Assembly (NCBI GenBank): GCA_030710605.1 | Contig: CP092876.1 | Location: forward strand, 59,960,252-60,024,251 | Length of the DNA stretch: 64,000 nt | Direction of reading: 5' to 3' | Source: Cordylochernes scorpioides | Taxonomy: Eukaryota; Arthropoda; Arachnida; Pseudoscorpiones; Chernetidae | Part shown: in pieces, positions 4,051 to 52,356 of the stretch | Position numbering within the stretch: the first letter of the stretch is position 1 | How the letters are laid out: each line of letters begins with the position of its first letter | The notes under the pieces: model-generated | Told to the model about the DNA's origin: nothing | What the model saw: the letters and a program-made list of their open reading frames with translations, nothing else | Databases searched by the model: none | Made by a program: the position numbers and the translations under genes

Positions 4051-4750
4051 CATGGGACATAATAGCTGCAAACATAGCGGGCGTGAATTTTACTTAACTT
4101 CCGACAACCGAGGTTGACATGACCATGTTAACGAAAAGCGCAAAAACGGCCAATGACTAAAGAGTGTCAGACTGACATATTTACATATAACACCCTCCCA
4201 GCAGAGGGGATGGAAGAACAATGGAGGCCTTTTTGTTTAGGGGAGTGGAGATAGAGGAGATTAAAAAAAATCCAACTTTAGAAAAGACAATAATAAAACA
4301 TTTTAAAATAAAATAAAATAAAAAAAGTTATATCATTATAGACAAGGTTGTTTTGTTTAGTCACAAGGTGTAAGGAGGAGACCAAACTCATTCCATTCAT
4401 AAGTACATGGGGAAACGTAATTTACTGAAATGTGATGCGATTTAATGGTAACAAACGGAAATTTGTTGAATCTATTCAGCGCGTGTCTAGCTAGATTTAT
4501 TGACTTTTTTTGTAGAATATATTTATTATATAAAATAATATAAATGCGTAAATGTTATGTAGTAATATAGAGGTCGTTTTAATTTGGCATGTCGATGTTC
4601 TATAAAGAAATGGGAGAGATAGCAGAAGGCAATTGGGGAGCGGAAGCCACAAGATGGTTGTTCTTCATTTCCGTGATGCGGAGATAGATAGCAGGGACGT
4701 TGTTAGCTCGCTCAAGTGGACAGATGGATTGTTCTTATCGCTGCTTGGAC
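4051..4750. other. No gene recognised; AT-rich
   Basis: Contains a short AAATAAAATAAAATAAAA tract near 4308-4325. No other structure is seen. Confidence 0.4.
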
Positions 4751-6317
4751 CAGTAGCTTGGTCAGAAACCTTTCATGTACCAAATCTACACTCGAGATAC
4801 AGGTGTGTAGACAGATCTTGGTCAGAAACCTTTCATGTACCAAATCTACACTCGAGATACAGGTATGTAGACAGCAGCTTGGTCAGAAACCTTTCATGTA
4901 CCAAATCTACACTCGAGATACAGGTGTGTAGACAGATCTTGGTCAGAAACCTTTCAGGTACCAAATCTACACTCGAGATACAGGTATGTAGACAGTAGCT
5001 TGGTCAGAAACCTTTCATGTACCAAATCTACACTCGAGATACAGGTATGTAGACAGCAGCTTGGTCAGAAACCTTTCATGTACCAAATCTACACTCGAGA
5101 TACAGGTGTGTAGACAGATCTTGGTCAGAAACCTTTCATGTACCAAATCTACACTCGAGATACAGGTGTGTAGAGAGCAGTTTGGTCAGAAACCTCTCAT
5201 ATACCAAATCTACACTCGAGATACAGGTATGTAGACAGTAGCTTGGTCAGAAACCTTTCATGTACCAAATCTACACTCGAGATACAGGTGTGTAGACAGA
5301 TCTTGGTCAGAAACCTTTCATGTACCAAATCTACACTCGAGATACAGGTGTGTAGACAGCAGCTTGGTCAGAAACCTCTCATATACCAAATCTACACTCG
5401 AGATACAGGTATGTAGACAATAGCTTGGTCAGAAACCTCTCATATACCAAATCTACACTCGAGATACAGGTGTGTAGACAGATCTTGGTCAGAAACCTTT
5501 CAGGTACCAAATCTACACTCAAGATACAGGTATGTAGACAGTAGCTTGGTCAGAAACCTTTCATGTACCAAATCTACACTCGAGATACAGGTGTGTAGAC
5601 AGCAACTTGGTCAGAAACCTTACATGTACCAAATCTACACTCGAGATACAGGTGTGTAGACAGTAGCTTGGTCAGAAACCTTTCATGTACCAAATCTACA
5701 CTCGAGATACAGGTGTGTAGACAGATCTTGGTCAGAAACCTTTCATGTACCAAATCTACACTCGAGATACAGGTGTGTAGACAGCAACTTGGTCAGAAAC
5801 CTTACATGTACCAAATCTACACTCGAGATACAGGTGTGTAGACAGCAACTTGGTCAGAAACCTTACATGTACCAAATCTACACTCGAGATACAGGTGTGT
5901 AGACAGATCTTGGTCAGAAACCTCTCATATACCAAATATACACTCGAGATACAGGTGTGTAGACAGCAACTTGGTCAGAAACCTTACATGTACCAAATCT
6001 ACACTCGAGATACAGGTGTGTAGACAGCAACTTGGTCAGAAACCTTACATGTACCAAATCTACACTCGAGATACAGGTGTGTAGACAGATCTTGGTCAGA
6101 AACCTTACATGTACCAAATCTACACTCGAGATACAGGTGTGTAGACAGATCTTGGTCAGAAACCTTTCATGTACCAAATCTACACTCGAGATACAGGTGT
6201 GTAGACAGATCTTGGTCAGAAACCTTACATGTACCAAATCTACACTCGAGATACAGGTGTGTAGACAGATCTTGGTCAGAAACCTCTCATATACCAAATC
6301 TACACTCGAGATACAGG
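4751..6317. repeat. Minisatellite, about 26 units of 60-61 bp
   Basis: Each unit contains GGTCAGAAACCTTTCATGTA, then CCAAATCTACACTCGAG, then ATACAGGTGTGTAGACAG. Units differ by recurrent variants: TTTCATGT, TCTCATAT or TTACATGT in the middle and GATCTTGG, CAGCTTGG or CAACTTGG at the junction. Where the unit is exactly 60 bp the array stays open in several frames on both strands, giving 20-residue repeats. These are by-products of the period and I do not call a protein. The array runs into unique DNA at both ends without a target duplication. Confidence 0.97.
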
Positions 6318-6523
6318 CGACATACACACTTATCTCGCGATATTGACGGACATCGGCAATGGTCAAAACATTAGAGATTAGGGAACGCTTTAAACGCAAG
6401 ATAAGGTTCAATGGGAAGTTTTCCAGTACGTTAATAGATACCACCTCTCTCTAAGAGTGTAAAAATCGTGATGTTTTGAAATATTTGAGCACGAAAGATA
6501 CGCATAAAATAGCGTACCAAGAT
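6318..6523. other. Unique sequence between minisatellite and retroposon tail
   Basis: About 200 bases with no feature recognised. Confidence 0.4.
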
Positions 6524-6640: not shown

Positions 6641-6902
6641 GAGAATAAAAAACAAGAAAGAGGGAAGCAAGAAAAACAACACAAAAAGAGTAGCAGCAAG
6701 AAAGTGAGGAATGAGTGTCACTTGGCCTTCTTCTGAGATATGGACTTGTGGAAACCATAAAACGCCGTAGCAATATACTTATTCTGGGTTATATTGTCAA
6801 TTATTGATGGAAGTGAAGCACAGAGTTGCCCAGTTTTGAGCATAAGGGTTCTTATTTCTTCTTTCATTTTTTAGTTTTAAAGCGTACCAAGATATTTATA
6901 AA
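6641..6902. other. No gene recognised
   Basis: Continuation of AG-rich retroposon-like sequence on the minus strand and AT-rich unique sequence. No domain is seen in small frames here. Confidence 0.35.
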
Positions 6903-7145
6903 TATATATAAAGATGAAGGTCGCCTCTCTCCCGTCAAAACTAGACGCCGTCTATTGACCGTCGCCGTAAACTAGCGGCTTCGGGTGGGCGACAAAGCCA
7001 CAACACCAGCTTTGGCAAACTGAGAAGCGTCCACCTATAGACCATGGTTTCGGGCTAATGGCATCTATTTAAACTTCAGCCTTTTGGCATCTATTTAAAC
7101 GGGAGAGGCGTCCTTTATCTTTATACATGAATATCCTCCCGGCAA
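6903..7145. mobile_element. MITE with long terminal inverted repeats (family H), copy 1
   Basis: The left end carries AAGGTCGCCTCTCTCCCGTC and the right end GGGAGAGGCGTCCTTTATC followed by ATATCCTCCCGGCAAAA, which are inverted relatives. Inside are GACGCCGTCTATTGACCG and repeated GGCATCTATTTAAAC. Other members are at 15003-15365 (full) and as fragments at 14680-14775, 30768-30900 and 33425-33485. The superfamily is unclear. Confidence 0.7.
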
Positions 7146-8033
7146 AATTTCCATATATATATATATTATTTATATTTGTATATATAAATGTACAAAATAT
7201 AAATTTTGATATTTTGTTAATGAGAAAATATCTCTCCTTGCTTATCTTTTATTTGATATAAGTTGATAATTGTTTCGATTTAAACAAATTGTCATCCTCT
7301 CACCTGTTTGGCATCTCTTATTTCACCATGTGACATTTTGGTGAAGATGCTGGGAATATTAGGGAAGGTGAACGAACATAAGATCGCTGACTAGAGGCTA
7401 TGAACTGTATTTTCTGCGACCAACTCGAGGAGATGCCATATAATTAAAAACTATTTCTACAATAATAAAAATGAAAAAGAAGGAGGTGGTTGTTTATCTC
7501 AGTAGTTAACACCCCCAACAATTTTCCCAGTTTAATCTTCAGATTGTTCTATTAATGTTTCAGGCAAATTTTCTCTTAAAATAAATTTTGACCAAAAATA
7601 TTAAAGCCACGCGTGCTTTATTATTACAATAAATAATTCTATTTGGGTTTAATTAATCCAATGATGTTTACTGGCATGTAGAATTCGCATAAAGCGAATG
7701 ACACGCGAAGGAGAAATTGTAAATTAATGTTCAAAATAAATTTAGGATTTTTATGAATATTTTTACTTTTACAAAAATGCTATACTATGTAAAGGGCCTG
7801 GAATACATATTCAAACCATAAAGTTCGTAATGTTTTAAAAAACAATGGTTGCCTGTAAAGTCGGTTTTACGGGCGAAGATTTTACGTGACAACGGTAGAA
7901 TATTTATTGATATGAATATAATTAAATTGCACAATAGGAACAAGGAATTGAATGAAAATAAGAATTGCACAAATTTTAACTATAGAAATATATTTTGTTT
8001 ACTAAAACATTGTACATGTAAACTTAAACTTAA
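7146..8033. other. No gene recognised; AT-rich
   Basis: Contains TA-rich microsatellite sequence near 7152-7200. Small open frames overlap on both strands at 7785-8037 and have no recognisable domain. Confidence 0.4.
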
Positions 8034-8576
8034 CTAATTCCTATTTGAGTGATTTTGTTGAGGATAGGACGATGATAGGAGAAATATGAAATGAAAGGAA
8101 GTGTTTCTGCTGTAATGAATGTGTCTTGCGAAAGTCAAGTCGATAGTTGTTCCTTTTAACGTAGTTGACTTAGAAACGTTTGATACGCAATCAAGATTAT
8201 ACGTATTTTTCATGAATTTAAGAAACGAGTTGTCAGGCTTTACGTTTTTGTTAAAATCACCACACAGAAGAATCGGTATACTAGAATCAACTTGCACGAA
8301 CGGTGGCACGTACTGGCTGTTGTGAATGTACGGACCGAGTCCTTGCCATAGTAACATTCCAATATCCTGCATACTAGCTCCTGGATGAATATATACAGCA
8401 CCGAGTATAAACTTGAAGCTAGTATTAGCGGCGAAGCAAGTAACTTCAGTCATGCACATGTCACCCTTGGTTTTAATGACACGAGTTACGTCTGTAATCG
8501 CAACTTGGAACACTTCCGCCGTAGATGTCGATGATAATTTACGATAGATCGCCACTCCACCAGCCGCGTTGGTATT
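8034..8576 (-). pseudogene. Endonuclease/exonuclease/phosphatase domain fragment of a transposon
   Basis: The frame reads AAGGVAIYRK at its start, ILLCGDFN in the middle (the metal-binding GDFN motif of APE-type endonucleases), then TTLKGTTIDLTF. The expected final motif, FSYHRPIL, is present in the next frame at about 8045-8090, so a one-base shift near 8100 breaks the protein's end. The family cuts DNA for non-LTR elements and also forms the C-terminal endonuclease of Helentron-type Helitrons; the style here resembles arthropod copies. No methionine precedes AAGGV and a stop lies about three codons upstream of the SNTN residues. There is no neighbouring reverse transcriptase or helicase, so this is a stranded remnant of roughly 180 codons. 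Confidence 0.8.
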
Positions 8577-8865
8577 TGAAAATCAAAACACTTATTCAGA
8601 TCGAAGGTTCAAATTTTTGCTAAATAAATTTGAAATTAAATAAAATTTGTAATTGTAAATGATGAAGTTGAAAATTAAAACATTTACTTAAATTAGATGT
8701 TAAAATTCTTGCTCAACACAGTTTAAATAAAGTTTTCTTATATCTGCCACTTTTTCTTAATATTTGTAATTTTAAAGAATCAATTCGAAAATCAAAACAT
8801 TTATTCAGATCGAAGGTTCAAATTTTTGCTAAATAAATTTGAAACTATTTAAAATTTGTAAAATA
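8577..8865. repeat. Direct duplication of about 75 bp
   Basis: A block starting GAAAATCAAAACACTTATTC and containing GATCGAAGGTTCAAATTTTT occurs at about 8577-8640 and again at about 8785-8850, roughly 207 bases later. It abuts the broken endonuclease frame and may be part of the same element's non-coding region. Confidence 0.75.
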
Positions 8866-14679: not shown

Positions 14680-14775
14680 CTTTCGGGGGATATTGATCTA
14701 TAAAAATAAGCCACCCTCTCCTGTCAAAAAGTCGCAAAACTACGCTAATCTATGGCGTCTGCTAATTTAACGTGA
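14680..14775 (+). mobile_element. Family H MITE fragment
   Basis: GGGGGATATTGATCTATAAA and CACCCTCTCCTGTCAAAAAG match the end of the family H elements at 6903-7145 and 15003-15365. Confidence 0.6.
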
Positions 14776-15002: not shown

Positions 15003-15365
15003 ATATGCATATATATATATATATATATATAAATAAAGGCCACCATCTTACCCGTCAAAATAGACGTCAAACTATACGCCATCTATATTTTGGCCTAGCC
15101 ACTTTGACAGCTAAACACCTCTTTGATAGATTGTGAATATTCCATTTGATTCCGGGTGGATCTCATGAAATTAAATCCACCCAGGACTAACGAGAACCAT
15201 TAGCCTGAAACCATGGTCTCCAGATGGGCGTTTCACAGTTTTCTAAAGATGGTGTTGTGGCTTTGTCACCGACTTGAGTCCGCTAGTTTGCGGAGACCAT
15301 CGATAGATGGCGTCTAGCTTAGACGGGAGAGGCGATCTTTTTTATATAAATCAATATCCTACCGG
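15003..15365. mobile_element. Family H MITE, copy 2, near full length
   Basis: After an (AT)n tract (15008-15031) the left end reads AAAGGCCACCATCTTACCCG and TCAAAATAGACG. The right end reads GACGGGAGAGGCGATC, then TCAATATCCTACCGG, the inverted counterpart. The middle has GGTGTTGTGGCTTTGTCACC, whose complement (GGCGACAAAGCCACAACACC) is in copy 1, so the two copies are inverted relative to each other internally. Confidence 0.7.
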
Positions 15366-15437: not shown

Positions 15438-15551
15438 TACTCCAACGCTTGTTCGGCGGTACATATACTAAAATTGGAACGATACAGAGATGATTAGCAT
15501 GGCCCCTGCGCAAGGATGACACGCAAAATCGTGAAGCGTTCCATACTCCAA
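15438..15551 (+). pseudogene. U6 snRNA pseudogene with 8-bp flanking repeats
   Basis: From 15446 to 15543 the sequence follows U6: ACATATACTAAAATTGGAAC, GATACAGAGA, GATTAGCATGGCCCCTGCGC, AAGGATGACACGCAAAATCG and TGAAGCGTTCCA. U6 forms the catalytic core of the spliceosome; the ACAGAGA box and the internal stem-loop are intact. The 5' stem is degenerate and the 3' end stops at GTTCCA without the terminal T run needed for Pol III termination. TACTCCAA flanks both sides (15438-15445, 15544-15551), indicating insertion by retroposition. A TTATAA lies about 25 bp upstream, so a transcribed variant cannot be fully excluded. Confidence 0.85.
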
Positions 15552-19762: not shown

Positions 19763-21202
19763 AGTATGTTCTTCGCCCGCCAGGTACGTATTTCTGGAAT
19801 GTGACGCATGAAACCTGCATGTATTGAGAGCATTCTTTTCTGTAGAGCATTTTTGAATCTTAGCATTTCTAACAACGCACTTTTAAGGGAAAAAAAAAAA
19901 GCCTTTTAGATATTTTTATATTTTTCTATTTCAAGTTACCTCTATATTTTTTCTTTTATATATTTCAACCTCTTTTTTTTACTAAATAATTTAGTTATAT
20001 ATATTCAGGATCATTTAAGCCCGTTTATAACATTTCGGGATGAATAGTAATTCGTTTATGATCATAAAACATGGGTATCCTTTAAATCGAGGGAATATTT
20101 TTAAAAATTAATCGCATCATTCATACTAGGTGAGCAAAATGGCTTAATATTCCTTCCGTATATCACAACTCTCGCGATGGGAATGAGGAAGCGAACAAAC
20201 TTTGTTCAGAGATTGTGTTAACATTTTGTTCGTAACATCTCGTAATGCCCTCCGTTGCCGGTTCAATTATGTGTTTAATTAATAGGTATGTTCTTTTTAT
20301 AAGCTACTTCTCGGGATAGTTAAAAGTTTGAAGAAGGTTTTAGCTGTTTTTTTTTTTAGGTGCACGTAACCCGGACGATACTTTAAAATTACCAAAGAGA
20401 TGCTTTCTTATGCCATTTTATTTGCTCGCATAAGTTCGGCGGCCCGAGTATGTGGCCAAAAAACACTGGAACGTCTACATATATAAACGAATATATAGAA
20501 TTTTTGTTGTTTTTAACACAAATTTAACTTGGATATTTTTGCTTAAAAAAAGTCAAAACACGCATTAAATTTAAATTATATCGATACATTAAAAAAATAC
20601 GGCATTATTAACTCATTTACATATTTAAAATATCTATTAGTGGTATGAAGTTTGCTTTCAGAGTTTATTTTTAATACAAACACCTTCGTTATAAATAAAT
20701 ATACATTTGGAATGAGAGAGAGATTTTTACAGTGCGAATAAACACCGGATGCGTGTATGTTTTCTAGGCAAATAAAGTCAAAGCACAGACAAGTGCAGGC
20801 AATCGGTCGAATAAACATGTAGGCAGAACCTATACCGATGTATATCTCAGTGTTAAAAGTGTTCAGCTGGTGCAATTCAAAGTTTTGAGCATAGTGGCAA
20901 CTCTCTTGAAACTCGTTGTCGCTAGAAATAGAGACGAAAAAAAAAGTGTTTTAAAATCAAAAAAGAACCACTGAAGTACTCTTATGACCATTTCAGATTG
21001 ATTAAATAGTGGAGCATTGAGATAACTATTACATGTTTCTTAAATAAAGTTACGTTCGAATGTTAGAAACACGATCCTTAAATTTATATCTTTTATATAT
21101 TCAATTTAATCACATAGATAAAAACACAGTCGAGTTAAAGTGTTTGACCAATGCAGAATTCGTTGAGAAAACGTTGACTAGCTCAGAATTATAACATAAT
21201 GT
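19763..21202. other. No gene recognised; AT-rich
   Basis: Poly-A and poly-T tracts. A 99-codon minus frame (20576-20875) has no domain. No transcription terminator for the microRNA transcript was identified. Confidence 0.35.
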
Positions 21203-21430
21203 TGCGGGAAGAATATATTCATGTACCTAGAGGGGCACCTCTCCCTTTTTAATAATCCCGAAATCATGACATCCCATTAGGCATTTTGTCTGGATTTGCC
21301 AAAACTGGTGTGTTATGCATGCTTCATTCTTTAACATCACTAGTAAGGTTTTTCACTAGGGTGATGTACAGTGCCATCGTTCTGGTGTACAATTAAAGGG
21401 AGTTGTGCCTTTTTTGGTGCACATACACAT
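21203..21430 (+). repeat. Hammerhead-bearing repeat family, degenerate copy
   Basis: Terminal inverted blocks (GGGGCACCTCTCCCTTTTTA and TTAAAGGGAGTTGTGCC) flank a core with TTTTGTCTGGATTTGCCAAA and CATCACTAGTAAGG...CACTAGGGTGATG. It aligns with 23341-23575. The segment CCCGAAATCATGACATCCC corresponds to the 3' half of the ribozyme at 23326-23386 but has lost the CTGATGA half. This copy is probably inactive. Confidence 0.7.
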
Positions 21431-22240
21431 ATACATTAAATATCTGTTGTGTGAATCCATAAAATTCAACATTTAAATAAAAACGACACATCTTGTATTG
21501 CAAAAACAAACTGCGTTTATTGCATGATATTTCGACGATCAGAATGTTCGTCTTTTTTTCAAACGCTTCCTTCTCGCCACAAATGTTATTATGTTTGCAA
21601 ATAAACACAGTTTATATCGTGAAGTTGCATGAAAGATAGAAAGGAGGGGGAGAAACAAGTGACTTATGGCCATCAGCAATTAATTTAATGGTTGCGAGCT
21701 TGCATGGTCCAGTTGCGTGCTTTAGTGGATGGAGCTTGGTTTCATTCGAAAAAAAAAAAAACAATTTATTACTTTCATGATAATGTGAGACGGCAATATC
21801 AAGCGGTGCTTTTAAACGCTTTGAGGCGATCCCTAAATGCCAAAAAACAGCGGTTAGGCAGCAATTACTTTGGTTGAGGACAATGGTGTTTGTTATTGAT
21901 ACCACATTATAGCGACCATAACAAAGTAAGCGTAATTTGCTAGTTTTACCCTCAGTTCAAGCCAAGTTTTGATGATGGCTACTTTAGACATTCTAGAAGG
22001 TAGCGTCATCTAGACAGCCTCCATTATGCATGCCTTTTATAGAAAACTTATCACCATGTGCTAGAAAAGAGTTTTGCCTGTTAAATATAAGCTAGTTAAT
22101 TTCGCGTGTGCTGTGAAAAGTTTTGAATGGTCAACGAATTAGTTTCTGAGAATAAATAACAACTTATGCTTGAAACCTGGAACAAAATAGCATGCATGTT
22201 GTTTGTTGTAAAGATTCTTCCCTGCTTTTACACTTTGATT
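21431..22240. other. No gene recognised
   Basis: AT-rich unique sequence with a poly-A run near 21750. A minus frame at 21612-21905 has no domain. Confidence 0.35.
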
Positions 22241-22451
22241 TAATCAATAAGGAATCTAGGGTTTCTTTTCTTATTTATTTTATTTCTCAAGCTTTCGGGC
22301 TAACATACCCCTAAACACGGGAGATCCTGAAGAAGATAGAAAAGAAGTTGTACGTCAGGATCTCCGTGTTGGAGGGCATGTTGGTCCGAAATCTCGAGAA
22401 ATAAAAGAAATAATAAAAGAAACGAAACCCTTGATTCCTTATTGTTTGATT
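22234..22451. mobile_element. Foldback element 3 with TTTGATT direct repeats
   Basis: Arms from AATCAATAAGGAATCTAGGG to AAACCCTTGATTCCTTATTG surround CAAGCTTTCGGGCTAACATA on the left and TTGGTCCGAAATCTCGAG on the right. The centre has a second perfect stem, GGAGATCCT with AGGATCTCC (about 22321-22361). TTTGATT occurs at 22234-22240 and 22445-22451, a possible target duplication. The CTTTCGG and CCGAAA half-motifs link it to the foldback family, though the arms are different in sequence. Confidence 0.7.
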
Positions 22452-23120
22452 CAAAATGCTGTTTGTTGATTAATATTAACTCTCTGTATGCATCTTCCAT
22501 CAATGTTAATTCCACAAGCAGCAAGTGCATACAGCATTCATTCCATCCCGACAGTATTCGCGATGTAAGAACATTTGAGAGATGTTTATCTGGTTCTTGA
22601 ATGCCCAACAGTAACAACTCTTAGAGTAAAACTTTGTTACAAGATTCGTGTGAGCCTTTTCAATACATTTGGTATTCGAGATATCTCACAGGAATGCTAA
22701 AATTGACCATTGTAGTCGTATATATTTTAAAATGAAATGTCAAAAAAATGTGTGTTACTCTTCACACCGTGAAAACCACTAACCCAATCATTAGGAAATT
22801 CTACATGAAGTTTAACTTATGGGCTATTCAAAACTAGAGAGAGAATATTCCTTTCATGTAAACAATTTCAATATATGGAAAACACCAAAAAGCGCTAGTT
22901 CCACCTTTTAACAGAAAGCGACAACGCTGATAGGAGGTATGGGATGAGTATATATATAAATGAATACATTTTTGATAAGCCAATATTTTTCAAACGTCTA
23001 AAAAAACTAATTTATTTTGAATAACTCAGTCAAATTTTTAAAATGGTTTTGAAAAGTAAGATTATGTGACATAAACACTGAGAGAAGAATAAAAACAATC
23101 ACTATACTCGGAATGAAATA
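22452..23120. other. No gene recognised
   Basis: AT-rich unique sequence. A 105-codon minus frame (22300-22617) overlaps the foldback element and is not supported. Confidence 0.35.
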
Positions 23121-23244
23121 ATACAAAAGAAAGACAATACATCCAGATGGCACAAGAACCTATAAGACATGCAACAACTGTCTTGGTGTGGAACTAACAC
23201 CGACTCACATATTCTCATGTCGAGCAATAGCCCCCTGCAGATAA
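23121..23244 (+). pseudogene. C-terminal zinc-knuckle fragment of a LINE reverse transcriptase
   Basis: An open frame bounded by stops encodes RTYKTCNNCLGVELTPTHIF followed by SCRAIAP. The spacing C-x2-C, then H-x4-C is the CCHC knuckle found at the end of ORF2 of jockey/I-type non-LTR retrotransposons, after the RNase H domain. The style is like arthropod copies. Only about 40 codons survive, with no upstream RT sequence. It lies just 5' of, and in the same direction as, the hammerhead ribozyme. Confidence 0.65.
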
Positions 23245-23325
23245 TTGGCATGGATCCAGAACAGCAGCTTTACACACCCTAAATAGAAGACATTGCGACT
23301 TCTGTGATAGAGATCCATGAAATCC

Positions 23326-23386
23326 AAGCCGCCCCTGTACTGATGAGGGCTAAAGCCCGAAACAATGGTATACAGGTTGTTGGCTT
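23326..23386 (+). ncRNA. Type I hammerhead ribozyme, complete
   Basis: All core elements are present in order. Stem I 5' strand is CCTGTA (23334-23339), then the invariant CTGATGA (23340-23346). Stem II is GGGC/GCCC with loop TAAA (23347-23358), then GAAA (23359-23362). Stem III is a minimal 2-bp AC/GT with loop AATG. The cleavage triplet is GTA (23368-23370), followed by stem I 3' strand TACAGG (23371-23376), perfectly complementary. Beyond an internal loop (GCC facing TTGTT) stem I continues as AAGCC/GGCTT (23326-23330 with 23382-23386), the arrangement that allows loop-loop contacts. Short stem III type I hammerheads are known from Penelope-like retroelements and other retrotransposons. 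Cleavage would fall after 23370. Confidence 0.88.
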
Positions 23387-23575
23387 TTGTCTGAATTTGC
23401 CAAAACTGGCGTTGTGGCGCATATCCTATACCTATGGTAGTATACCTATACCTATGGTAGCTTAAGTTTTTTACTAAAGTGCAAAGAATAATACATTGTT
23501 TTAAAGGGTATTTAAAGGGAAAGGTGCCTCTTTTGGCATATGTATAGTGTCCTCCCGCAGCGTTGAGATACATAT
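23387..23575 (+). repeat. Body of the hammerhead-bearing repeat
   Basis: Continues from the ribozyme with TTTTGTCTGAATTTGCCAAA, ACTGGCGTTGTGGCGC, a short direct duplication of CTATACCTATGGTAG (about 23428-23461), TTTAAAGGGAAAGGTGCC and a CCTCCCGCAG end. The order matches 21250-21430. The inverted end block, TTGCGGGAGGA on the other strand, also occurs near 31405 on the plus strand. Confidence 0.7.
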
Positions 23576-24261
23576 TGTCACATCTATGATGACCTACTCG
23601 GTGAATCATCATCACCAGTCACGTGACGTCAACGTCTTATCTGTAAATAGTTTGTTTATACATCTCTCTGTTTGTTTGTTGATATCTGGCCAAACTGTGT
23701 AAATACTTTCCTTGTTAAAATAAATCTGTTTTATGAATACTCGTTTTGGTGTTACTTATCGAATATGGACATGACGCCAACCCCCCAGGACATCTGCTGG
23801 AGACACGCTGGACTTGATCCAGTAACGGAAATATAACCATCCGAAAGTGTGTGTACGACGGGAATGAAGATCCTCGGGAATGGTTCCTGATAAAAGTTCT
23901 TTACGTCAGAAAAACACTTCAGAAAGCCACATGAGTCATGTTTCAGGCTTTCCTTTCCCATCATATCCTCAGTTAGCCGTTCTGAAGAGCACAAGACTTG
24001 AGACAAAGGTTCTAATGGATAATGCTGACAATTGACATAGGGTCAATGCCCAGTTTCTTTATCTTCAACTTCTTTACAGGGTCTCAATTTAACTTCTTTA
24101 AATTTTCTGACAAATTAAAACGTTCCTTACCTTATCCGATCGATGCCAGTGTGGTTTCCTTGAAGGTTCACTGTCGGCTTTGTCAAACGACTTTTTGACA
24201 TGGTCACCAGTGGTTTACATGGAATATGGCTACGGATATATATATAGAAAGAAATAACTGG
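23576..24261. other. No gene recognised; possible LTR/gag remnant
   Basis: At 23636-23760 a TTTG-rich stretch carries an AATAAA-type signal (TTAAAATAAATCTG) and is followed by an ATG frame of about 22 codons beginning MDMTPTPQDI. This pattern is reminiscent of an LTR end plus a gag start, but no paired LTR or target duplication was found. Confidence 0.3.
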
Positions 24262-24513
24262 CATATATTGTTTTGTGAAAAAAAAGTACAAATGTGAGAT
24301 TGTACTGGGATAAGGTGGGTAAATTGAGAAAAAGGCTTCTCTTTATCGTGTAACTGAAAATTACATGGTTTGCGCCATCTGTCGGAATAAATATAAACTA
24401 TTTGATGATTTTTAATTATTCCAGAATTGGTCAAATACCCATTCCTGATTAATGATGGCGCAAGCCATCAGAAACTTTCGGTTTCACGATAAGGATATGC
24501 CTTTTTCTTAATA
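24262..24513. mobile_element. Interspersed inverted-repeat family F, copy 1
   Basis: Inverted ends: left GAGAAAAAGGCTTCTCTTTA with TCGTGTAACTG, right TTTCACGATAAGGATATGCC with TTTTTCTTA. TTGCGCCATCTGTCGG and GATGGCGCAAGCCATCAG flank an inner palindrome. Relatives: 30430-30695, 43352-43762, 46090-46180, 46233-46326 and 61745-61850. The class is unknown. Confidence 0.7.
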
Positions 24514-24690
24514 CAGTTAAACCTGTCTATAGCGCCCCCTCTTGGGACTCACCAAAATAGAGTGTTATAGAAAGGGGGTGCTATAGACAGGTCACTTTTA
24601 ATGTAAATCGAATCGTACTACGTATTTAAAATCGGGCGCTATAGAGAGGGAGGCGCTATTTAGAGGGGGCGTTATAGACAGTTTTAACTG
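24514..24690 (+). mobile_element. pogo/Tigger-type MITE, 177 bp
   Basis: Starts CAGTTAAACCTGTCTATAGC and ends with the inverted CAGTTAAAACTGTCTATAAC. TA flanks both sides. Internal copies of GGGCGCTATAGAGAGGG and related blocks repeat the terminal motif. It lies against the end of the family F element. Confidence 0.9.
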
Positions 24691-25116
24691 TATACTGTTT
24701 TATTTGTTTTTCGGTCTGTGTGTTAGGGACATTTCCAATTTATATGATATATTCTGTATAAATAGAATACATGTGTTAAAATATTATAAATCATTAAAAA
24801 TCAATCATTAAAACATTGATAGACAGGTAGTTAAACTCCATCTTTACCTCCCTTTCACTATGCAAATAGCCGGTGGTTAGTTAATAGAAATGTAATATGA
24901 TGCACTAGCGCGCCATCAAATGTTCTAATAAAAGACACTATTTGATATTTGCGGAAGAGCGATTGCTCGAAGCATATTATATATTTATAATTGTATGTAA
25001 TTCTACTGTCCTCAAAGCTTATGTCCATAGTTCTTCTAAAATACCCATCCCAAGAGTATCGAAACAGTATCATTATAAAAGGAAGTTCCAAAAATGTAAT
25101 ATAACAGCGGTATGGT
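24691..25116. other. No gene recognised
   Basis: AT-rich. GATGCACTAGCGCGCCATC near 24900 is the complement of a block at 38505-38523, so this is probably part of the family that includes the CTGATGA module that follows. Confidence 0.35.
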
Positions 25117-26760: not shown

Positions 26761-28687
26761 ACTGCATGTTGGATGAGAGCCTACTGTGAGACATAGTGAG
26801 TTCTACATTTTACAACAAGGCTCCCCTATAATTTGAATTAATCAATAAAAAATTATAAATGTGTGTGTAAGTAGCGCTGAAGTGATTTTGTTTACATATA
26901 CACTATTCATGGCCCTATACAAATTTCTCAAATATTAAATAAATCGGATATATGGAGACTAAAAATGATGATTAAAAGATATCCTCAATTCACACGACTA
27001 CTATTATTTATTCCTTTAAATATTTAATTGACCTATCGGAAGCGATATCCCAGCTTGGGATACTTGCGCCTAAATACATTTCATCAACCTATATACAATT
27101 CAATAACCGGAATAAAAACAAAATTAAAACTGAGAAACGTTGGTTATCTCAAACACAAAAGAAAATATAAAATGAATTTCCAATATTATTGAATTTTACA
27201 TGAGTCTTTGTTATATACAAATTCGCAAATTTCTTCGATGATTACTTCTGTAGCTGTGAAAGATCGGACATTCTATTAATAAATGTATTGAGCTTTGGAG
27301 TTTCTTTTAGAGTATTAAAATCATTGAGGCAATAATGTTTGTTACAACAATATTCGTTTTGCAAATATTCATTCGGTGGAAGATATCTTTTCTATAAATA
27401 AAATATAGAAATGTGTTTGCTTCGTATTAATGAATTGATTGAATTAGGATGGCTTTTTTAAAAAAAGGACCATCGCGGTGGCTTATTTTTTGTTTAGCGT
27501 GTATGGAGAGGTTAGTACTATAATTTTTTATTAGGCTAAGTGAAGACCTCGGCTGAGTCATCAGTAAATTACAGAGATGGGAGAGAGAAAAAGAAATGGA
27601 TCTTTTTTTATTTTTAAATCGGATTAGTGGAAGATTTCTGAAATAAATTAGAGGAGCGAGCGTTTTTGCTCTCAACTTTGGGTGATCATTAATAATTATC
27701 AATCATATAATAAATAATTTATATATTTTTCTTCATCTCTCTAAATATAACAGATTCCCTCCGTCATTTTTCATTGTCCCCCCCCCCATCTCTCTGAAGG
27801 TTTCCAATTTTTTCGCATCAATTCCATCTTGCCATTGAATTCAGCTTCAATCTGGGCCATCAGTTATCCCTTCAAAAACTGCTTTCATTTTCGCTTTCTT
27901 TGGACTTGAGATAAGTTGAATCCATATTTTCCTAAATTTTTCCATCTCACTTCTTTTTACATCCTTGCCGTTCATTTTAGCATCCGATTGTAAAGATTTT
28001 CTTATCTTTTTTTTTTTTCATTGAGAGTTCTTTTTTTTTTTTTAAGCGCCGTCTCCTAATCTCTTCCCTGAATTAAAAAGAGATAAGTGGATAGAAACTA
28101 CTTGCTATCAGAGACGGTAGAGAGAAAAGATTTGAGAGATAGTTATAAAGGACTTAGCTACCTCCAGCGAGATCTTAAAGAGTCACTAGAGCTATAAAGA
28201 AACGTTGGGGAGTGCGAAAGGAATAACGGTAGCTGTAAAAAAAGAAAGAATTAAATAACGATCGAAAGCCATGGTTTACAAGTGGGTTCTTCAAAATTTC
28301 CAAAGATATTGCAACGACATATGAACAGATTATTAATATCTTGCTATACTTCCATTATTTATAAGAAGGAATAAAAGATAACTGCAACAAGATTCTTGTA
28401 ATTTGTATCAAAACTTCCATTATATTGTTTACTTCTTCTTGTCTTGTATTTTATATATTTTATGTCTGTACCTCAAATAAATTTGTGTCATCCTGAAGTT
28501 TATATTTCCCACGTGACAATATAATTGCGTCGATTACATTGTGCTGAATGCAACATTTTGGTAAGACGCGGTCACATTTGAAGACATATTTTAAAACGGA
28601 GCCATATAGATGCAAGCTTCAACAGACGAGTAAATATTAATTGTAAAATAAATAATTAAAACTATTTTATTCAAAAAAATCTAAATA
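26761..28687. other. No gene recognised; long AT-rich stretch
   Basis: Contains C- and T-rich tracts (27778-27788, 28004-28045). A 91-codon minus frame (27427-27702) has no domain. Confidence 0.35.
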
Positions 28688-30695: not shown

Positions 30696-30767
30696 TGAAA
30701 TTTTTTGTTATTTTGTGTGTGAAAATTATATAATTGGGAGAATTATCTTAATATATTTATAGTTTTG

Positions 30768-30900
30768 CCGGGAGGAAATTGATCTATAAAAATAAAGGCC
30801 GAACTGAATCTGCTCTAGTTTGCGCAAACGGTCAATATATGGCGCTTAGTTTTAGTGTCTATTTTGAGAGGAAAAGCGACCTTATATATATAGTATCATG
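30768..30900 (+). mobile_element. Family H MITE fragment
   Basis: TTGCCGGGAGGAAATTGATC and TATAAAAATAAAGGCCG match the family H end; the inside is diverged. Confidence 0.6.
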
Positions 30901-31404
30901 GGCTAACTCAAGTTATATGCAAAGGGTTAAACCTTCGATGCTTTTGGAAATAACCAGTTCAGAAACTTCACTATTTTGTGGGTGAATGTCAGCCCGATAT
31001 AGTTTCTAAGCTCTGGTATAAGGTGGGAGGAAGAGAATGATATGGCGAGAGTCATTCCTTCAGCACAGAGGAAACTCACTCCGACAGGGGGGAACCAGAG
31101 AGGACGGTTTTTCAGGCGGGGTAATTAGCGGAAATGCTAATTAAAACTATCATTTATTTAAGAGAAGAAATTAAGAGTGCATGGGCGCAGAGAAGCTACT
31201 GCGGCCAGCAAGTCAAATATTTGGCCAAGACGCCGTCATAAAAATCAATGTTGTGTAACAGCCAAGTTACAATCATCCCTCCCGCTGTCATTTCCTTCGC
31301 GGAATTATCTGGATAGACTTTGGTGGTTAGATCATTGATACCTTCACGCAAACACGTCTATGGTTTGTCAGAGGAACCCCACAAACATAAAATATTACAA
31401 TATA
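30901..31404. other. No gene recognised
   Basis: Unique, moderately GC-rich at 31060-31260. No domain in small frames. Confidence 0.35.
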
Positions 31405-31450
31405 AAATTGCGGGAGGATTGCGAGAGACACCTCTCCCTTTAATTATGAT
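31405..31450 (+). repeat. Fragment of the hammerhead-bearing repeat (end block)
   Basis: AAATTGCGGGAGGATTG and GACACCTCTCCCTTTAATTA match the inverted end of the family at 21203-21430 and 23500-23575. Confidence 0.6.
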
Positions 31451-31482
31451 TCAGAACTATGTACTTGTTCCTCACCCTTGTG

Positions 31483-31669
31483 CAGGAGTCGGCAAACTGC
31501 GACTCTTTGGATGTGAAGTTGCGGCTCTTTATATAGTTCCTTACGTAAATATTATTTATGGGAGTACTGTTTATTTTTGGAAAGAAAATATTTTGTGGCT
31601 CTTTAAAAACTTTGAAATTTTGTAAATTGAAATTTTTGACTCTTCCGACTCAAAAGTTTGTCATCCCTG
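31483..31669 (+). mobile_element. hAT-type MITE, copy 2
   Basis: Begins CAGGAGTCGGCAAACTGCGA and ends AAAGTTTGTCATCCCTG, whose complement CAGGGATGACAAAC pairs with the start. Flanks CCCTTGTG (31475-31482) and CCCTAGTG (31670-31677) match at 7 of 8, an 8-bp hAT target duplication. Body matches 569-746. Confidence 0.88.
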
Positions 31670-31749
31670 CCCTAGTGAAAACTTTACTAGTCATAATGAA
31701 GAGAATGGTATACACATATATAATATATATAAAATGAATGGATTTAAGC

Positions 31750-32972: not shown

Positions 32973-33424
32973 TTGTATATCAATGATATTTCTCAATCAA
33001 TTTTATGTTTACAAAATGAATTGAAATATTCAAGTCGGATCTAAGGGAAGGCCTACCAGAATGTACAATATTGGGCGCTGGCTAAGCCCTCGTCAGTTAC
33101 TTTGCTAAAAAAAGGAAGGATGTTTAATTGAATGGTGTTTTTCAAGAGAGATTTATTAAACTAATTATTTTATTATTTCCGAGATAAATATGCTAAGGAT
33201 GTAAATTCCAGAAAAATAAGCAGGAAACGGGCAATAAATGCGTCCTAAAGTTAGTAAAACTTTGCCGCGCGGTGGGTAAATATTATTCTACGCGGAGGAA
33301 GTTCTGCAGCAACATAATTTGGAGCCAAATATTATTGATCGTATTAAATGAGGTCTCACTCACGACGTCTATATTTACATATATTTATGTAATAGTATAT
33401 GTGCACATTGCTTGAATTTATTTT
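32973..33424. other. No gene recognised
   Basis: Unique AT-rich sequence. Confidence 0.35.
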
Positions 33425-33485
33425 TAACGGGAGAGGTGACTCTTTTGGTACATGGATTATTATATACTATTCCCCAGTAAAATCA
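33425..33485 (-). mobile_element. Family H MITE end fragment
   Basis: AACGGGAGAGGTGACTC and TTATATACTATTCCCCAG resemble the right end of the family H element. Confidence 0.45.
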
Positions 33486-33531
33486 TGTGATTATATATTA
33501 CTGTACAACTATATAAATATACAGTAGAACC

Positions 33532-34437: not shown

Positions 34438-34510
34438 TTTTTTGTCGTGTAGTGGTTATCACATCCGCCTAACCCACGGAAGGTCCCAGGTTCGAGCCTT
34501 GGCAGAAACA
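34438..34510 (+). tRNA. tRNA-Val(AAC)-like sequence, possibly a pseudogene or SINE head
   Basis: The 73-base segment has A box GTGTAGTGGTTATCAC, anticodon loop CTAACCC (anticodon AAC), and B box GGTTCGAGCC. The acceptor pairs TTTTTG with CAGAAA but the first pair is T-C, and the anticodon stem has a C-A mismatch at its loop end. A T7 run follows (34513-34519), a Pol III terminator. The mismatches suggest a decayed gene or the head of a third SINE; downstream sequence has no matching copy in the window. Confidence 0.6.
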
Positions 34511-34687
34511 CTTTTTTTGTGCGTTGATGGAAGGCTAGTAAAATGGCTGTTCTAATCAATGTCACCGCTTTACCAGAAGTGTACTTTTCTGGGAACCAGG
34601 TAAAACTGGTGGAAAAATGGTATTGACTGTTCAAAACTGTGATGGGTTAACCCTCATTGCGGGTCAGTTGAGCTTTGGAATTGTATG

Positions 34688-37929: not shown

Positions 37930-38215
37930 CACACACACTATGTACAACATATCGAGATTAGTCTCCATTATTCTGAAAACATTTAAAAAGGTCCTCATCA
38001 GTACAGGGGCAGCTTCTATTTCATAACATCCTACGAAATCGGTCGAATTTACCAAACAGGTGTTTAAGCTGGTGAAGTAGCAAGGGCCGATTTTCAGGCA
38101 AGAATAGAACATAACGTTTCGGGAAGATAATTTGCCAATATTGGTGTTGTGGCTATTTTTCATCACCACTAGTAAAGTTTTTACTAGGGTGATGAACATA
38201 ATGCTTCGTATATAG
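37930..38215 (-). repeat. Rearranged relative of the hammerhead-bearing repeat
   Basis: On the minus strand GCCCCTGTACTGATGAGG (37993-38010) matches the 5' half of the ribozyme exactly, but stem II and GAAA are missing. On the plus strand TTTGCCAATATTGGTGTTGT and CACTAGTAAAGTTTTTACTAGGGTGATG in parts match the body of the family. The two halves are in opposite orientation, as in foldback copies. Confidence 0.6.
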
Positions 38216-39247: not shown

Positions 39248-40233
39248 TTGATTTTTAAATTAGGTTGAAATCCTCTGAAGAATATAAATAATAGAATCAA
39301 AGCGTGCGAGGATGCGTATCTTTTGAGTTTTAATGAAGGCGAGCTTTCGGGTCAATAACCCTTCTTCAGGTCATCATATCCGACTGATCTTGCATCTTAT
39401 ATACATGTCCATTTTGAGAAAAATCAGCATATATACAAGAAAAACAAACGTATCTGCCGAACTGTTAGGAAAGTAATAGCATGTGATGACCGCGTGTCCC
39501 GAGCATATCACGTAGGAAAAACACAAGAAACTTCTCGATTAAGCCATGATACAGTTTAAGGCTGCATGAGTAAAATTAATCCAAAATGAAACGTGCTGGC
39601 AAAGGTCTCCTAAGGTACACTATGGCAATATTGTTTTGTATATATCAGGGATGTCTATATGTCTATTAATACTGTTATGTTTTAAAGAGAGCAACGCCTC
39701 GACGACCAATCTTTTGTATTTGCTCTTGATTCCTGAGTAATATGCCTGTGGATGACAGGCATATTACTCAGGAATCAAGAGCAAATACAAAAGATTGGTC
39801 GTCGAGGCGTTGCTCTCTTTAAAACATAACAGTATTAATAGACATATAGACATCCCTGATATATACAAAACAATATTGCCATAGTGTACCTTAGGAGACC
39901 TTTGCCAGCACGTTTCATTTTGGATTAATTTTACTCATGCAGCCTTAAACTGTATCATGGCTTAATCGAGAAGTTTCTTGTGTTTTTCCTACGTGATATG
40001 CTCGGGACACGCGGTCATCACATGCTATTACTTTCCTAACAGTTCGGCAGATACGTTTGTTTTTCTTGTATATATGCTGATTTTTCTCAAAATGGACATG
40101 TATATAAGATGCAAGATCAGTCGGATATGATGACCTGAAGAAGGGTTATTGACCCGAAAGATCGCCTTCATTAAAACTCAAAAGATACGCATCCTCGCAC
40201 GCTTTGATTCTATTATTTATTTGATTTTTAAAT
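39248..40233. mobile_element. 937-bp near-perfect palindrome in a foldback insertion, 13-bp target duplication
   Basis: Arms 39284-39749 and 39755-40220 are reverse complements with a 5-base spacer (39750-39754). I found one mismatch by eye (G/T near 39352 versus 40152). TTGATTTTTAAAT occurs at 39248-39260 and 40221-40233, so the insertion is 39261-40220 with a 23-base unpaired segment on the left. Near each outer end is CCTGAAGAAGGGTTATTGAC with CCGAAAG or its complement, the same kind of stem-loop as in the smaller foldback elements. No significant open frame is present. The target duplication argues for a real insertion, not an assembly artefact. Confidence 0.9.
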
Positions 40234-43877: not shown

Positions 43878-44951
43878 CCTTATTTATTTTTAATATCAAC
43901 ACCTGACCCACTTATCTTTTTTTTTTCTATTGTTTTTTCATATTTAACTATATAACAACGGCACACATAAAAAGCTCACAAGTAAAATATTAAACTCTAA
44001 ATGAACAAAAAAAACCCCCTCATATATATCAGAAGATATCTTGGGATTTGGAGAAGAAAGGCAAGATCCAATCGAGAATCAATTTCTTGATATACGGAAA
44101 AATGCAGAAGAGAAAAACACACAAGCTTTGTATGAAAAATTATGTACATAATTACAAAGAAAAATTTATATGATGATTTGAATATGTATAAATACATTTA
44201 AAAACAACAGTAGAGTCAGAATGGTTGAATTCTGGTCAAAATGGTTTGAAAAACGAGAGTGTGGCTATCGGCTCAAATCTTTTAGTTCAAAACATACTCA
44301 ATAAAGAGAGGCGAGTTGTGTTCCTTGAAATAATAACAAATTTATAAATCCAATATATGAAATTTCTCTCTATAATATATATGTTTAATGTGTCATGCCT
44401 TTTCTCCTTTTGATAGAGTTCGACAAAAAAGGCGAGTTAGATTGGAAATAAAGATAGAAAGACCTTTTTTTCTCTAGAATGTCGGACATTGGCTAGGACA
44501 ACACAACTGCTGGAAAAGACAATTTGTAAAGGGGGGAAAAGAAATAGAAAGTAAGCCGGCAACATCGATTACGAGTCCCTGGACAGATGTGCGACAAATG
44601 CAGACAGGAAACGCCGGCCAGGAAAAGCGAGCACTCCTTAGGGACTTGGGGCCGACCGACTCAATATACCTCTAACTTTCTTTCCTGGCCTTTCCTCCAA
44701 TCCTATGTCTTCGGCAGAATGAATCTATAAATGCCTCGACATATGCCATACATCACTCAAAACATGAAACAAACTTGTTAAAAACTCTTCCTGGTATAAG
44801 GAAATAATAAAGCCGAGGACAGCTGGTAGTGTCCAATAATTCCAATAGGAGAGGGGGAGGGAGTATTAAAAAAAGAAAGTGGAGAACACAAAAGGCAATA
44901 TGCAGATGGTGGCGGCGTCTGGAGTTGGGCGTGGGCCAAGGTGGCTTGGCA
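43878..44951. other. No gene recognised; one GC-richer unique block
   Basis: The block 44555-44720 (CGGCAACATCGATTACGAG, CGCCGGCCAGG) is unique and could be a conserved non-coding element. A TATA-like CTATAAATGCC is at 44727. Confidence 0.35.
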
Positions 44952-45590
44952 AGGAAATACTACTGGTTGTGCCCGGCAAATACTTGCTTAATACACTATT
45001 AAACTTGTGGCAGAGAATACAGAGAAATACTACTGGTTGTGCCCGGAAAATACTTGCTTAATACACTATTAAACTTGTGGCAGAGAATACAGAGAAATAC
45101 TACTGGTTGTGCCCGGCAAATACTTGCTTAATACACTAATAAACTTGTGGCAGAGAATACAGAGAAATACTACTGGTTGTGCCCGGCAAATACTTGCTTA
45201 ATACACTATTAAACTTGTGGCAGAGAATACAGAGAAATACTACTGGTTGTGCCAGGAAAATACTTGCTTAATACACTATTAAACTTGTGGCAGAGAATAC
45301 AGAGAAATACTACTTGTTGTGCCCGGCAAATACTTGCTTAATACACTATTAAACTTGTGGCAGAGAATACAGAGAAATACTACTGGTTGTGCCCGGCAAA
45401 TACTTGCTTAATACACTAATAAACTTGTGGCAGAGAATACAGAGAAATACTACTGGTTGTGCCCGGCAAATACTTGCTTAATACACTAATAAACTTGTGG
45501 CAGAGAATACAGAGAAATACTACTGGTTGTGTCCGGCAAATACTTGCTTAATATACTAATAAACTTGTGGCAGAGAATACAGAGAAATAC
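44952..45590. repeat. Minisatellite, about 9 units of 70 bp
   Basis: Unit: GAAATACTACTGGTTGTGCC, CGGCAAATACTTGCTTAATA, CACTATTAAACTTGTGGCAG, AGAATACAGA. Units are nearly identical, varying mainly at CGGCAAA/CGGAAAA and CTATTAA/CTAATAA. Confidence 0.97.
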
Positions 45591-46089
45591 TTGTGTCACC
45601 ACTGTGACTTGTTGGATAAACACTGAGATTCTACTGGTATTCACAGTTCAACACACGTCACTCAGTGGTAGTGAGGACGGAGGGGATGCGCCGTTGTATT
45701 TCTCCCAGTAACACTTAATTATCGATTTTGTACACTACAGGGTTACATCAAGAGAGAGAGAAAGCAAAGATCATGAAAATGTTTGTTTTAGTCATTTTAA
45801 ATACTTTCTATACTTATTCTTGTAATATTGCGAGAACAGGGTTTATTCTTGTGGTGTGAAAAAAAAAAAAAAAAAGATTTTTGAAGCAATTTTGCCATTT
45901 GTACGCCTGCTACCTACAATTTCTGTATTAGATGAGACTTTCAAGAATGAGTCCGATTAAATAACAATAATGTAAGAGCGTAAATTTATAAAATCTACTT
46001 TTTAAATCGTCAATACAGCACTATACTAAATATATATACATTATCCCCCTTATACACCTTACAAGGATCAACTTAGAAAACATTCAAAA
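45591..46089. other. No gene recognised
   Basis: Unique; poly-A tract at 45859-45875. Confidence 0.4.
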
Positions 46090-49505: not shown

Positions 49506-49971
49506 CATATGTCATAATATATGCTCTTCCAGGGTTAATAAAACAAACCAACAGCCAACGAGAGAGAAATGGGCCGCTAAAGCGAGACACTTTAGACAAC
49601 TAACTAACGACCATTTTTTGGCCACATTCCTGAGGGGGGCGTCACCACCTGGCGACTATCCTGGTTAGCCCCCCGGTTGTGTACACAGGTAAAACAGTCG
49701 TTCAGCAGATAACGTCTCACTCGCTCTCTCGGGTGGCTGCCTGGATGATTGCTCTAACAACTCGTCGTGTGATTATTTCTCTCCTCAACACATTTACCAC
49801 TATATTGTCACATTGAAAAGTCGACAGGATAAGACCTGGCCGGGAAGCGAATCCCTCATATACCGGAGTATGAAGAAACAAGAAGCCAAGCCACGATGAT
49901 CGACCAAACCCAACTCAACTGTAACCACTCCTCTTCGAGCCCTCAACCCCTTCCTCGCCAACCTTTGAACC

Positions 49972-50178
49972 GTGATCCCGAAGAAGTATTCACCTACGAC
50001 GGAGATGGAGCTGCCACGCACTTCTTCCAGCACTAGATCTACTCAAAAACGATCGCCGTGCCAGAGCAGGACACCTCCCGCCATCATGGACAAGACTCCG
50101 CCATCTCCCTACCGCTACTGTGATGTACAACACTGGTACGCACAGTGTCACAGACAGAACTCTCCCGAAGCTCAATGA
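49972..50178 (+). pseudogene. gag zinc-knuckle remnant in the LTR element
   Basis: The frame has no ATG and ends SPYRYCDVQHWYAQC and a few more residues. This follows the C-x2-C-x3-HW-x3-C pattern of gag knuckles in Ty3/gypsy elements, which bind genomic RNA, but the first cysteine is tyrosine. About 68 codons; TCTR-type basic, serine-rich residues precede it. The rest of gag is not recognisable. Confidence 0.5.
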
Positions 50179-50980
50179 ACTTACCTGCGCCCTAAACCAA
50201 CATAACTCGTGAGTGTAATTGTCTTAACTCCTACCATTCATTCTTTAAATAAGTCATTCTTTGTAGATTGTCCCAATATTTCCACAATTAGCTCAATATG
50301 TGTGAATATGTAAAAATATTTAATATTTCCATTTATCTCTCCGCCCCTATTAACAGTGATCTTATTATCCATATTATATCTAGCTATGTGAAACCCATTT
50401 AATTAGTTACCTTACCAGTAGATGTAACAATCGTCATTTTAATTAAATAATTTCCATTTTAACGTAACTCTTTAAAAAAAAATCATTAAAAAAAAAGGAA
50501 TTCTACCTATTAACGCTTTACGATTTTTTACTATTAACAATAGATTTTTCATAATCAAATTATTTATAAAAATATGCCTCCAGCACTTAAACTTTTGTAT
50601 AGACCTCTCCTACTTGTAAGCACGGCTCACGAAAAATAATTTCTTTCCCTAATCGATTCAAAATTCACCCTGTAATTCAGGCGTCGAAGAATTCCAACCA
50701 CCACGTGAGCCTTGCTTACAACCAACCCTTGGTGACTCTTATCTATCTTCCCCTTAATGCCCTTCTCATTCTTACAACTTTGTTAACCTTATACCAGCTC
50801 AGGACCTTTATAGAGAATTATTGATTAATCAATTATCGAACTTCTATATTGTCATTTCAAAATCCTAACCTTCGCCCTTCATTTATGATAATTTATTTCG
50901 TAGTTCATCTCTAGCCTATCCACCGACCCACACCATCTAGCCAATGGCGTGTTCGTCACAGGGTGCAGATTGACTAACTG

Positions 50981-51805
50981 CTAGATATTTATCAATCCCT
51001 TTTTGTTCGCACTTGAACAATCTGCATCGAGCGACAAAGTTCGCCTCTTCTCCTCGCGCCACACGTTCGCCACACGGACCCTGTCTTCAAATCTATGTTT
51101 GTCCATTGTCCAAACCAGCACGATATAGCCTACCTCCGATATTTCCCACGGAGGTACGTTAAACATCGTCGCTGATTTTGTCCGGTCCGTCATCATTTCG
51201 CGCAGACATGGGTCTTACTTTCAACCCACCGCGAAATCATCGCCTTGCACAAGCTCCCACGACGGTTCAAACACCTCGTGTCCGAGCAGCTTGTCACTTG
51301 TAACGGACAACGCAGTCCTCGTCCCAATTTTTGGCACTGTGCGCGCATACTTTCCGCAAATTAAATATAAGTCCGTTCGACTTCCTCACCTACACACGGG
51401 ACTTTTTCCCTCGGACTCGCTACACAAGTAACTACATAGATAAGTTAGATTGGCCCAGGGCAAGTCTCCCCTCGCTCTGTTCGCCGAGGTTCTAACATTG
51501 TATGTAGTTTTATATTTACCTCAGTCCTGAGCTCACACAATTGTCAACCTCAATCTCATTTCTCGTACTCTACACTTATAGCATAGAAAGCCCATGACAA
51601 GTTTCCCCTTGCCATGTCCGCCTGAAAAATATCTTAAAGTGTAGAGTTCCCCAGTCTTAATGATCTTCAGAATTTCACCATATGTATGTGACTCTTCTTC
51701 TCGTTGTTCACACTCCTCCATATCACTTCCCTTATAGTACATTAGATTTTGTTGTATATAGCCTTTTATAACCTTGATATTTTCAAAGATTTCCTTAAAT
51801 GTCAA
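50981..51805 (-). pseudogene. Protein-like segments antisense to the LTR element
   Basis: Three minus-strand segments look protein-like: 51805-51533 (TFKEIFENIKVIKGYIQQ onward, 90 codons), about 51375-51230 (contains ICGKYARTVPKIGTRTAL, stop-bounded), and 51196-50981 (contains FNVPPWEISEVGYIVLVW, 71 codons). They are in different frames and separated by stops. I recognise no family. They may be captured host exons or chance frames opposite a decayed gag/pol. Confidence 0.3.
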
Positions 51806-52356
51806 ACTCCCCGGTGTTGTAAAACTGCTTGTAAATAATATTTACTTGTGTACTATACAATATTTTATTTACATAAAACTATGTCAAACTAAAACTAATT
51901 TTAACTGTAAAATTATTTTCTCTATTCCTGGCTTCACCAGCTTTAAATATACTTAAACTATGTTCAGCCTTCTTCAACGGGGGCCATATGTCATAATATA
52001 TGCTCTTCCAGGGTTAATAAAACAAACCAACAGCCAACGAGAGAGAAATGGGCCGCTAAAGCGAGACACTTTAGACAACTAACTAACGACCATTTTTTGG
52101 CCACATTCCTGAGGGGGGCGTCACCACCTGGCGACTATCCTGGTTAGCCCCCCGGTTGTGTACACAGGGAAAACAGTCGTTCAGCAGATAACGTCTCACT
52201 CGCTCTCTCGGGTGGCTGCCTGGATGATTGCTCTAACAACTCGTCGTGTGATTATTTCTCTCCTCAACACATTTACCACTATATTGTCACATATATATAT
52301 AAAAAAAGAGTGCACACACATCGTTTAATGGGGTTCATTTTAATGTCGAGACAAAT

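Follow-up and report, generated by a model that had tools for sequence, protein, structure and literature searches.

A probable type I hammerhead ribozyme in one copy of a dispersed repeat family of Cordylochernes scorpioides

The hammerhead motif and its comparison with chance

A hammerhead motif of type I lies on the plus strand at 23326-23386 of the window, i.e. the whole stretch of 64,000 nucleotides of C. scorpioides DNA that was analysed. It belongs to a repeat piece designated copy A, and the strand reads AAGCC-GCC-CCTGTA-CTGATGA-GGGC-TAAA-GCCC-GAA-AC-AATG-GT-A-TACAGG-TTGTT-GGCTT. The features in and around it are as follows.

23146-23324, plus strand: decayed coding-like tail that contains one stop, one frame change and the spacing C-x2-C-x8-H-x3-C, and terminates immediately upstream of the ribozyme stem
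23326-23386, plus strand: type I hammerhead of copy A with extended stem I (internal loop GCC/TTGTT, distal arms AAGCC/GGCTT)
23326-23330 and 23382-23386, plus strand: distal arms of stem I, AAGCC and GGCTT
23334-23376, plus strand: hammerhead core with the triplet GTA, comprising stems II and III and the proximal part of stem I; cleavage predicted at 23370/23371
23334-23339 and 23371-23376, plus strand: proximal arms of stem I, CCTGTA and TACAGG
23340-23346, plus strand: core strand CTGATGA
23347-23350, 23351-23354 and 23355-23358, plus strand: stem II strand GGGC, loop TAAA and stem II strand GCCC
23359-23361, plus strand: core GAA
23362-23363 and 23368-23369, plus strand: stem III, AC/GT, with loop AATG at 23364-23367
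23370, plus strand: A at hammerhead position 17, in the triplet GTA
23396-23418, plus strand: conserved segment 3' of the ribozyme in copy A
23496-23575, plus strand: right end of copy A

The hammerhead consensus consists of the core CUGANGA...GAA and an N-U-H cleavage triplet. Both are present in copy A, with GTA instead of GTC as the triplet. The sequence at 23326-23386 also has the three helices and the open stem I of this type: stem I is built of six pairs, a 3-by-5 internal loop and five further pairs, stem II of four pairs and stem III of two. The internal loop of stem I and loop II, which are candidate contact partners, are both present. Every element of a type I hammerhead named in the first-pass annotation was found, in order and in position, including the resumption of stem I as AAGCC/GGCTT past the internal loop. 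After copy A, an AATAAA-bearing stretch at 23545-23760, with no sharp boundary towards copy A, resembles a lone LTR-like end.

The window was scanned on both strands with a Watson-Crick-only descriptor (at least six, four and two pairs in stems I, II and III, respectively), and dinucleotide-shuffled windows served as control. The result showed one match in the real 64-kb window and none in 1,500 dinucleotide shuffles, and a looser Watson-Crick descriptor (4/3/2 pairs) gave five matches in 1,500 shuffles. With G-U pairs allowed, two strict and 12 relaxed matches were obtained in 300 shuffles, compared to one real match in each case. A scan that permitted one core substitution together with G-U pairs returned three matches in the window, the two others having the changed core CTGTAGA.

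A covariance-model search had been put forward as a check in the first-pass annotation. No hammerhead was returned when the whole window was scanned at Rfam gathering scores (U6 RNA only) or when a 701-base stretch was scanned at E ≤ 10, but a search of 69 bases against 4,227 families with laxer filters gave Hammerhead_HH9 (RF02275) as the best of three listed matches (19.6 bits, E 0.0044), far below its gathering score of 52 bits and with the expected pairs, including the extended stem I. The core and an extended stem I with internal loop are common to RF02275 and copy A, whereas helix III and loop II are shorter in copy A. The U6 spliceosomal RNA (95.8 bits in Rfam) lies at 15445-15550, about 80 bases past copy C of the family described below, and a tRNA-Val (AAC) lies at 34438-34511.

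Folding with RNAfold gave the hammerhead pairing -15.5 kcal/mol, compared to -18.7 kcal/mol for the best structure, which lacks helix III. The pair probabilities were at least 0.993 for stem II, 0.55-0.997 for distal stem I, 0.32-0.88 for proximal stem I (0.32 at its innermost pair) and 0.005-0.006 for stem III. This result counts against easy formation of the hammerhead, under an energy model that is blind to tertiary contacts.

A chance resemblance would agree with the Rfam score below the gathering level, the unfavourable RNAfold energy and the two strict G-U-allowing matches in 300 shuffles, but it is judged highly improbable because none of the 1,500 shuffles reached Watson-Crick-only quality; halves of the core are, moreover, kept in homologous copies. 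The type I reading of the first pass is supported by the descriptor control, the sub-threshold match to the Rfam clan and these copies.

A generic hammerhead pattern was also run against viral contigs, where it gave 41 matches at 33 loci, some of them from overlapping or the same contigs. Many of these matches look, by eye, type I-like with a long stem III, a build unlike that of copy A. At L005, L015, L021, L023, L025 and L032 the contig holds several motifs resembling type I hammerheads, with a maximum of three at a locus; stem III is again long, and stem I is in most cases GGTTAA/TTAACC or a sequence close to it.

A dispersed repeat family and its copies

Copy A is part of a dispersed family, of which self-comparison and profile searches found at least eight further pieces (B-H and J) in the window.

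6880-7150, minus strand: copy B, with inverted ends; the hammerhead keeps its 3' half (CCCGAAACCATGGTC) but not the 5' core, and the copy folds as a rod (z -5.1)
15030-15365, plus strand: copy C, with inverted ends and a degenerate full-layout hammerhead at about 15177-15228, triplet GTC; rod fold, z -7.4
21198-21445, plus strand: copy E, with inverted ends and a degenerate 3' hammerhead half; fold z -3.5
30765-30900, plus strand: piece H, a short copy that lacks the ribozyme; taken alone, its inverted ends do not reach significance
31400-31710, minus strand: piece G, right part without ribozyme, broken up by other sequence
33404-33488, plus strand: piece J, an isolated right end
37960-38090, minus strand: piece D, 5' hammerhead half, with GCCCCTGTACTGATGAGG kept exactly
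38110-38215, plus strand: piece F, with the conserved 3' segment kept

Pieces D and F stand in inverted order within 37960-38215. Matches starting in the satellites at 4700-6400 and 44900-45600 were omitted from the self-comparison listing, two weak profile matches (28266-28305, E 0.0021; 14685-14740, E 0.001) were excluded from the copy count, and the short sequence pattern used on the copies also has a chance-like match at 56190. The satellite-like arrays themselves, at 4755-6317 and 44954-45591, have 121/182-base and 70-base periods.

As delimited, copies A, B, C and E are 310, 271, 326 and 246 bases long with a GC content of 39-45%, and H is 136 bases long. Identity to A over the aligned stretches, ribozyme parts included, was 66-77% in B, C and E; in D it was 91% across 32 bases. 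The segment at 23396-23418 has no mismatch in B, two in F and three in C, and E aligns to it with more changes.

Hammerhead parts were found in five pieces (A, B, C, D and E) and are intact in A only. Copy C has CTAACGA in place of CTGATGA and, by eye, two mismatches in stem II and two in stem I; one stem I pair differs between A and C on both sides (T-A versus G-C, in an alignment read by eye). An Rfam test of copy C gave no hammerhead match. Piece D carries CTGTACTGATGAGG in the same element order, its 5' half being exact over 18 bases. Copies B and C share GAAAC-CATG-GTC, i.e. a GTC triplet and a CATG loop, suggesting that the ancestral triplet was probably GTC. In the same two copies ACCATGGT is self-complementary, forming an 8-base palindrome. 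The first-pass annotation had looked to other copies that retain the paired core; within the window this held for the layout in C (apart from a single changed core and mismatched stem positions) and for the halves in B, D and E, but the complete core was found in A only.

Three DNA patterns of the family gave no match in the viral contigs, and a blastn search with 23100-23580 gave none in phages and plasmids, which says little, animal DNA being scarce or absent in both collections.

The ends of the copies and the nature of the carrier

Inverted ends were observed in copies B, C and E, each with none of 1,000 shuffled controls as good, but were not significant in A (312 of 1,000 shuffles) or in H alone (128 of 1,000), and a left inverted end sought upstream of copy A was not found. 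The earlier description of the locus as a repeat with inverted ends accordingly fits three relatives but not copy A itself. When the ends were aligned, 11 of the 12 matched one end profile at E < 1e-4, a profile built from those same ends, which suggests that the copies may share common ends. On visual inspection, six of the 12 ends (left of B, E and H; right of A, C and G) show a clear terminal motif near TTGCSGGGAGGA, and no copy has it clearly at both ends. The sequences flanking the copies, likewise inspected by eye, showed no recognisable target-site duplication.

In B and C the ribozyme has a roughly central position. Rod-like folds beat the shuffles in C (100 of 100), B (200 of 200) and E (199 of 200), whereas copy A is not a rod (z -0.53 over 91 bases and 0.57 over 311 bases versus shuffles). 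Copy A contains an internal repeat of two 20-base copies at 23425-23460. No tandem array of unit size was found at the copies in the window, in a search that arrays less than about 70% alike can escape. When all six reading frames of 20501-25002 were searched against Pfam (E up to 1), no family was found, and hence no transposase or Penelope domain in that stretch.

Elsewhere in the window, a near-perfect palindrome of 937 bp (99.3% identical to its own reverse complement) lies at 39284-40220, and two 308-bp direct repeats at 49506-52292, 99.7% identical and starting 2.5 kb apart, resemble the LTRs of a young element; inspection of their borders settled no duplication. An open frame of 182 amino acids at 8034-8582 on the minus strand seems similar to the AP-type endonuclease of a mobile element, and it had no Pfam or NCBIfam match.

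Taken together, the locus is probably a genuine type I hammerhead, carried by a single member of a family of short, scattered mobile repeats that do not code for protein; the better-preserved members are strongly self-complementary. It may be classified as a hammerhead of type I whose carrier, of unsettled class, resembles a retrozyme. PMC7229834 assigns most classical type I hammerheads of animals to the non-LTR retrozymes, short repeats in tandem that are expressed as linear and circular RNA.

It is possible, if doubtful, that copy A is a lone broken remnant of such a classical retrozyme, whose tandem units are cut by the ribozyme into circularising unit RNA. Like the retrozymes of Acropora, Mytilus and Ambystoma described there, copy A is type I with a short (2-bp) helix III and a tetraloop; A, B, C and E fall within a unit size of 170-400 bases and a GC content below 50%, the tandem units of retrozymes measuring about 150-450 bp (H is shorter), the self-pairing of retrozyme RNA has a predicted counterpart in the rods of B, C and E, and the palindrome ACCATGGT of B and C fits the dimeric action reported for amphibian retrozymes. 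Unlike those retrozymes, however, the copies form no tandem, the relatives have inverted ends, a single ribozyme is intact and its triplet is GTA; copy A is not rod-like, and the shared, self-built end profile hints at common ends. Retrozyme membership is not claimed here because the tandem feature, tested in the window, was not found. The W-elements of schistosomes, as described in PMC8490949, are likewise repeated and hammerhead-bearing, some with internal inverted repeats; they are transcribed and described as satellite-like, and are likened to the present family by description only.

A DNA-transposon-like or foldback (MITE-like) repeat that moves as DNA, with a near-central hammerhead merely trimming incidental transcripts, would account for the inverted ends of B, C and E, the related end profile, the single dispersed copies and the position of the ribozyme in B and C. 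It is considered rather unlikely, however: the TTGCSGGGAGGA-like motif is clear in only half of the ends and never at the two ends of one copy, neither a target-site duplication nor, in 20501-25002, a transposase domain was recognised, the inverted ends of H alone are not significant, and inverted arms also arise from rod-shaped RNA elements.

Placement of the ribozyme in the 3' UTR of a LINE, from whose tail the small copies would derive, is unlikely. It is consistent with the coding-like tail stopping just before the ribozyme stem, a tail that seems similar to the C-terminus of a LINE ORF, and with the alignments of C and D to A, which start at 23264 and 23294, partly upstream of the ribozyme. 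However, the tail had no match in Pfam, NCBIfam or PDB sequences, its peptide pattern matched six stretches in viral contigs of which none was confirmed, and the best further match in the window, at E 0.093, is not a convincing second copy; such Cys/His spacing can arise by chance.

The first-pass annotation had linked the motif to the minimal hammerheads of Penelope-like elements, a link that the analysis did not support. According to PMC7761336, type I hammerheads are present in Penelope elements, which are found alongside retrozymes, and the minimal forms of Penelope-like elements and Terminons, likewise type I in a mobile repeat, lack helix III or loop contacts. Copy A differs from these forms in its 2-bp helix III with tetraloop and its internally looped stem I, and is in this respect nearer to the invertebrate hammerheads described in PMC7229834. 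A Penelope-like pseudo-LTR, of the kind that flanks an RT and GIY-YIG coding region, is very unlikely, chiefly on helix III; the copies are not in tandem, and no Penelope domain was found in 20501-25002, although a lone pseudo-LTR would show none.

Proposed activity and implications for hammerhead carriers

For the favoured reading, a hammerhead in a short mobile repeat, we infer transcription, cleavage, mobility and a role of the cut as follows. The plus strand of copy A would be transcribed from its own or a neighbouring promoter, and the 23326-23386 part of the RNA would fold and cleave its own strand on the 3' side of A23370, so that the upstream product ends in a 2',3'-cyclic phosphate and the downstream product begins with a 5'-OH. 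By analogy with animal retrozymes, the cut in the ancestral active element would most likely have freed unit RNA from longer transcripts, and this RNA may then have been circularised or reverse transcribed, as proposed for those elements. Copy A in its present state is probably immobile, being solitary and without a left end.

Animal repeats with hammerheads are already known and common, and it is the carrier that looks unusual; none with both inverted ends and a hammerhead was found described in a limited literature look-up, largely at the level of abstracts. Tentatively, and with more doubt than confidence, the hammerhead may be an integral component of a dispersed family of palindromic elements with inverted ends, placed near the foldback apex of either a DNA-transposon-like or a rod-RNA element.

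As to the machinery that moves hammerhead repeats of animals, PMC7761336 states that animal retrozyme repeats show no motif that reveals a helper, and it names Penelope-like elements and Terminons as likely candidates. Recognisable inverted ends would offer a handle on the helper, since an autonomous element sharing these ends would be a candidate for it. Movement of the element as DNA, if it occurs, would mean that retroelements are not the only carriers of self-cleaving ribozymes.
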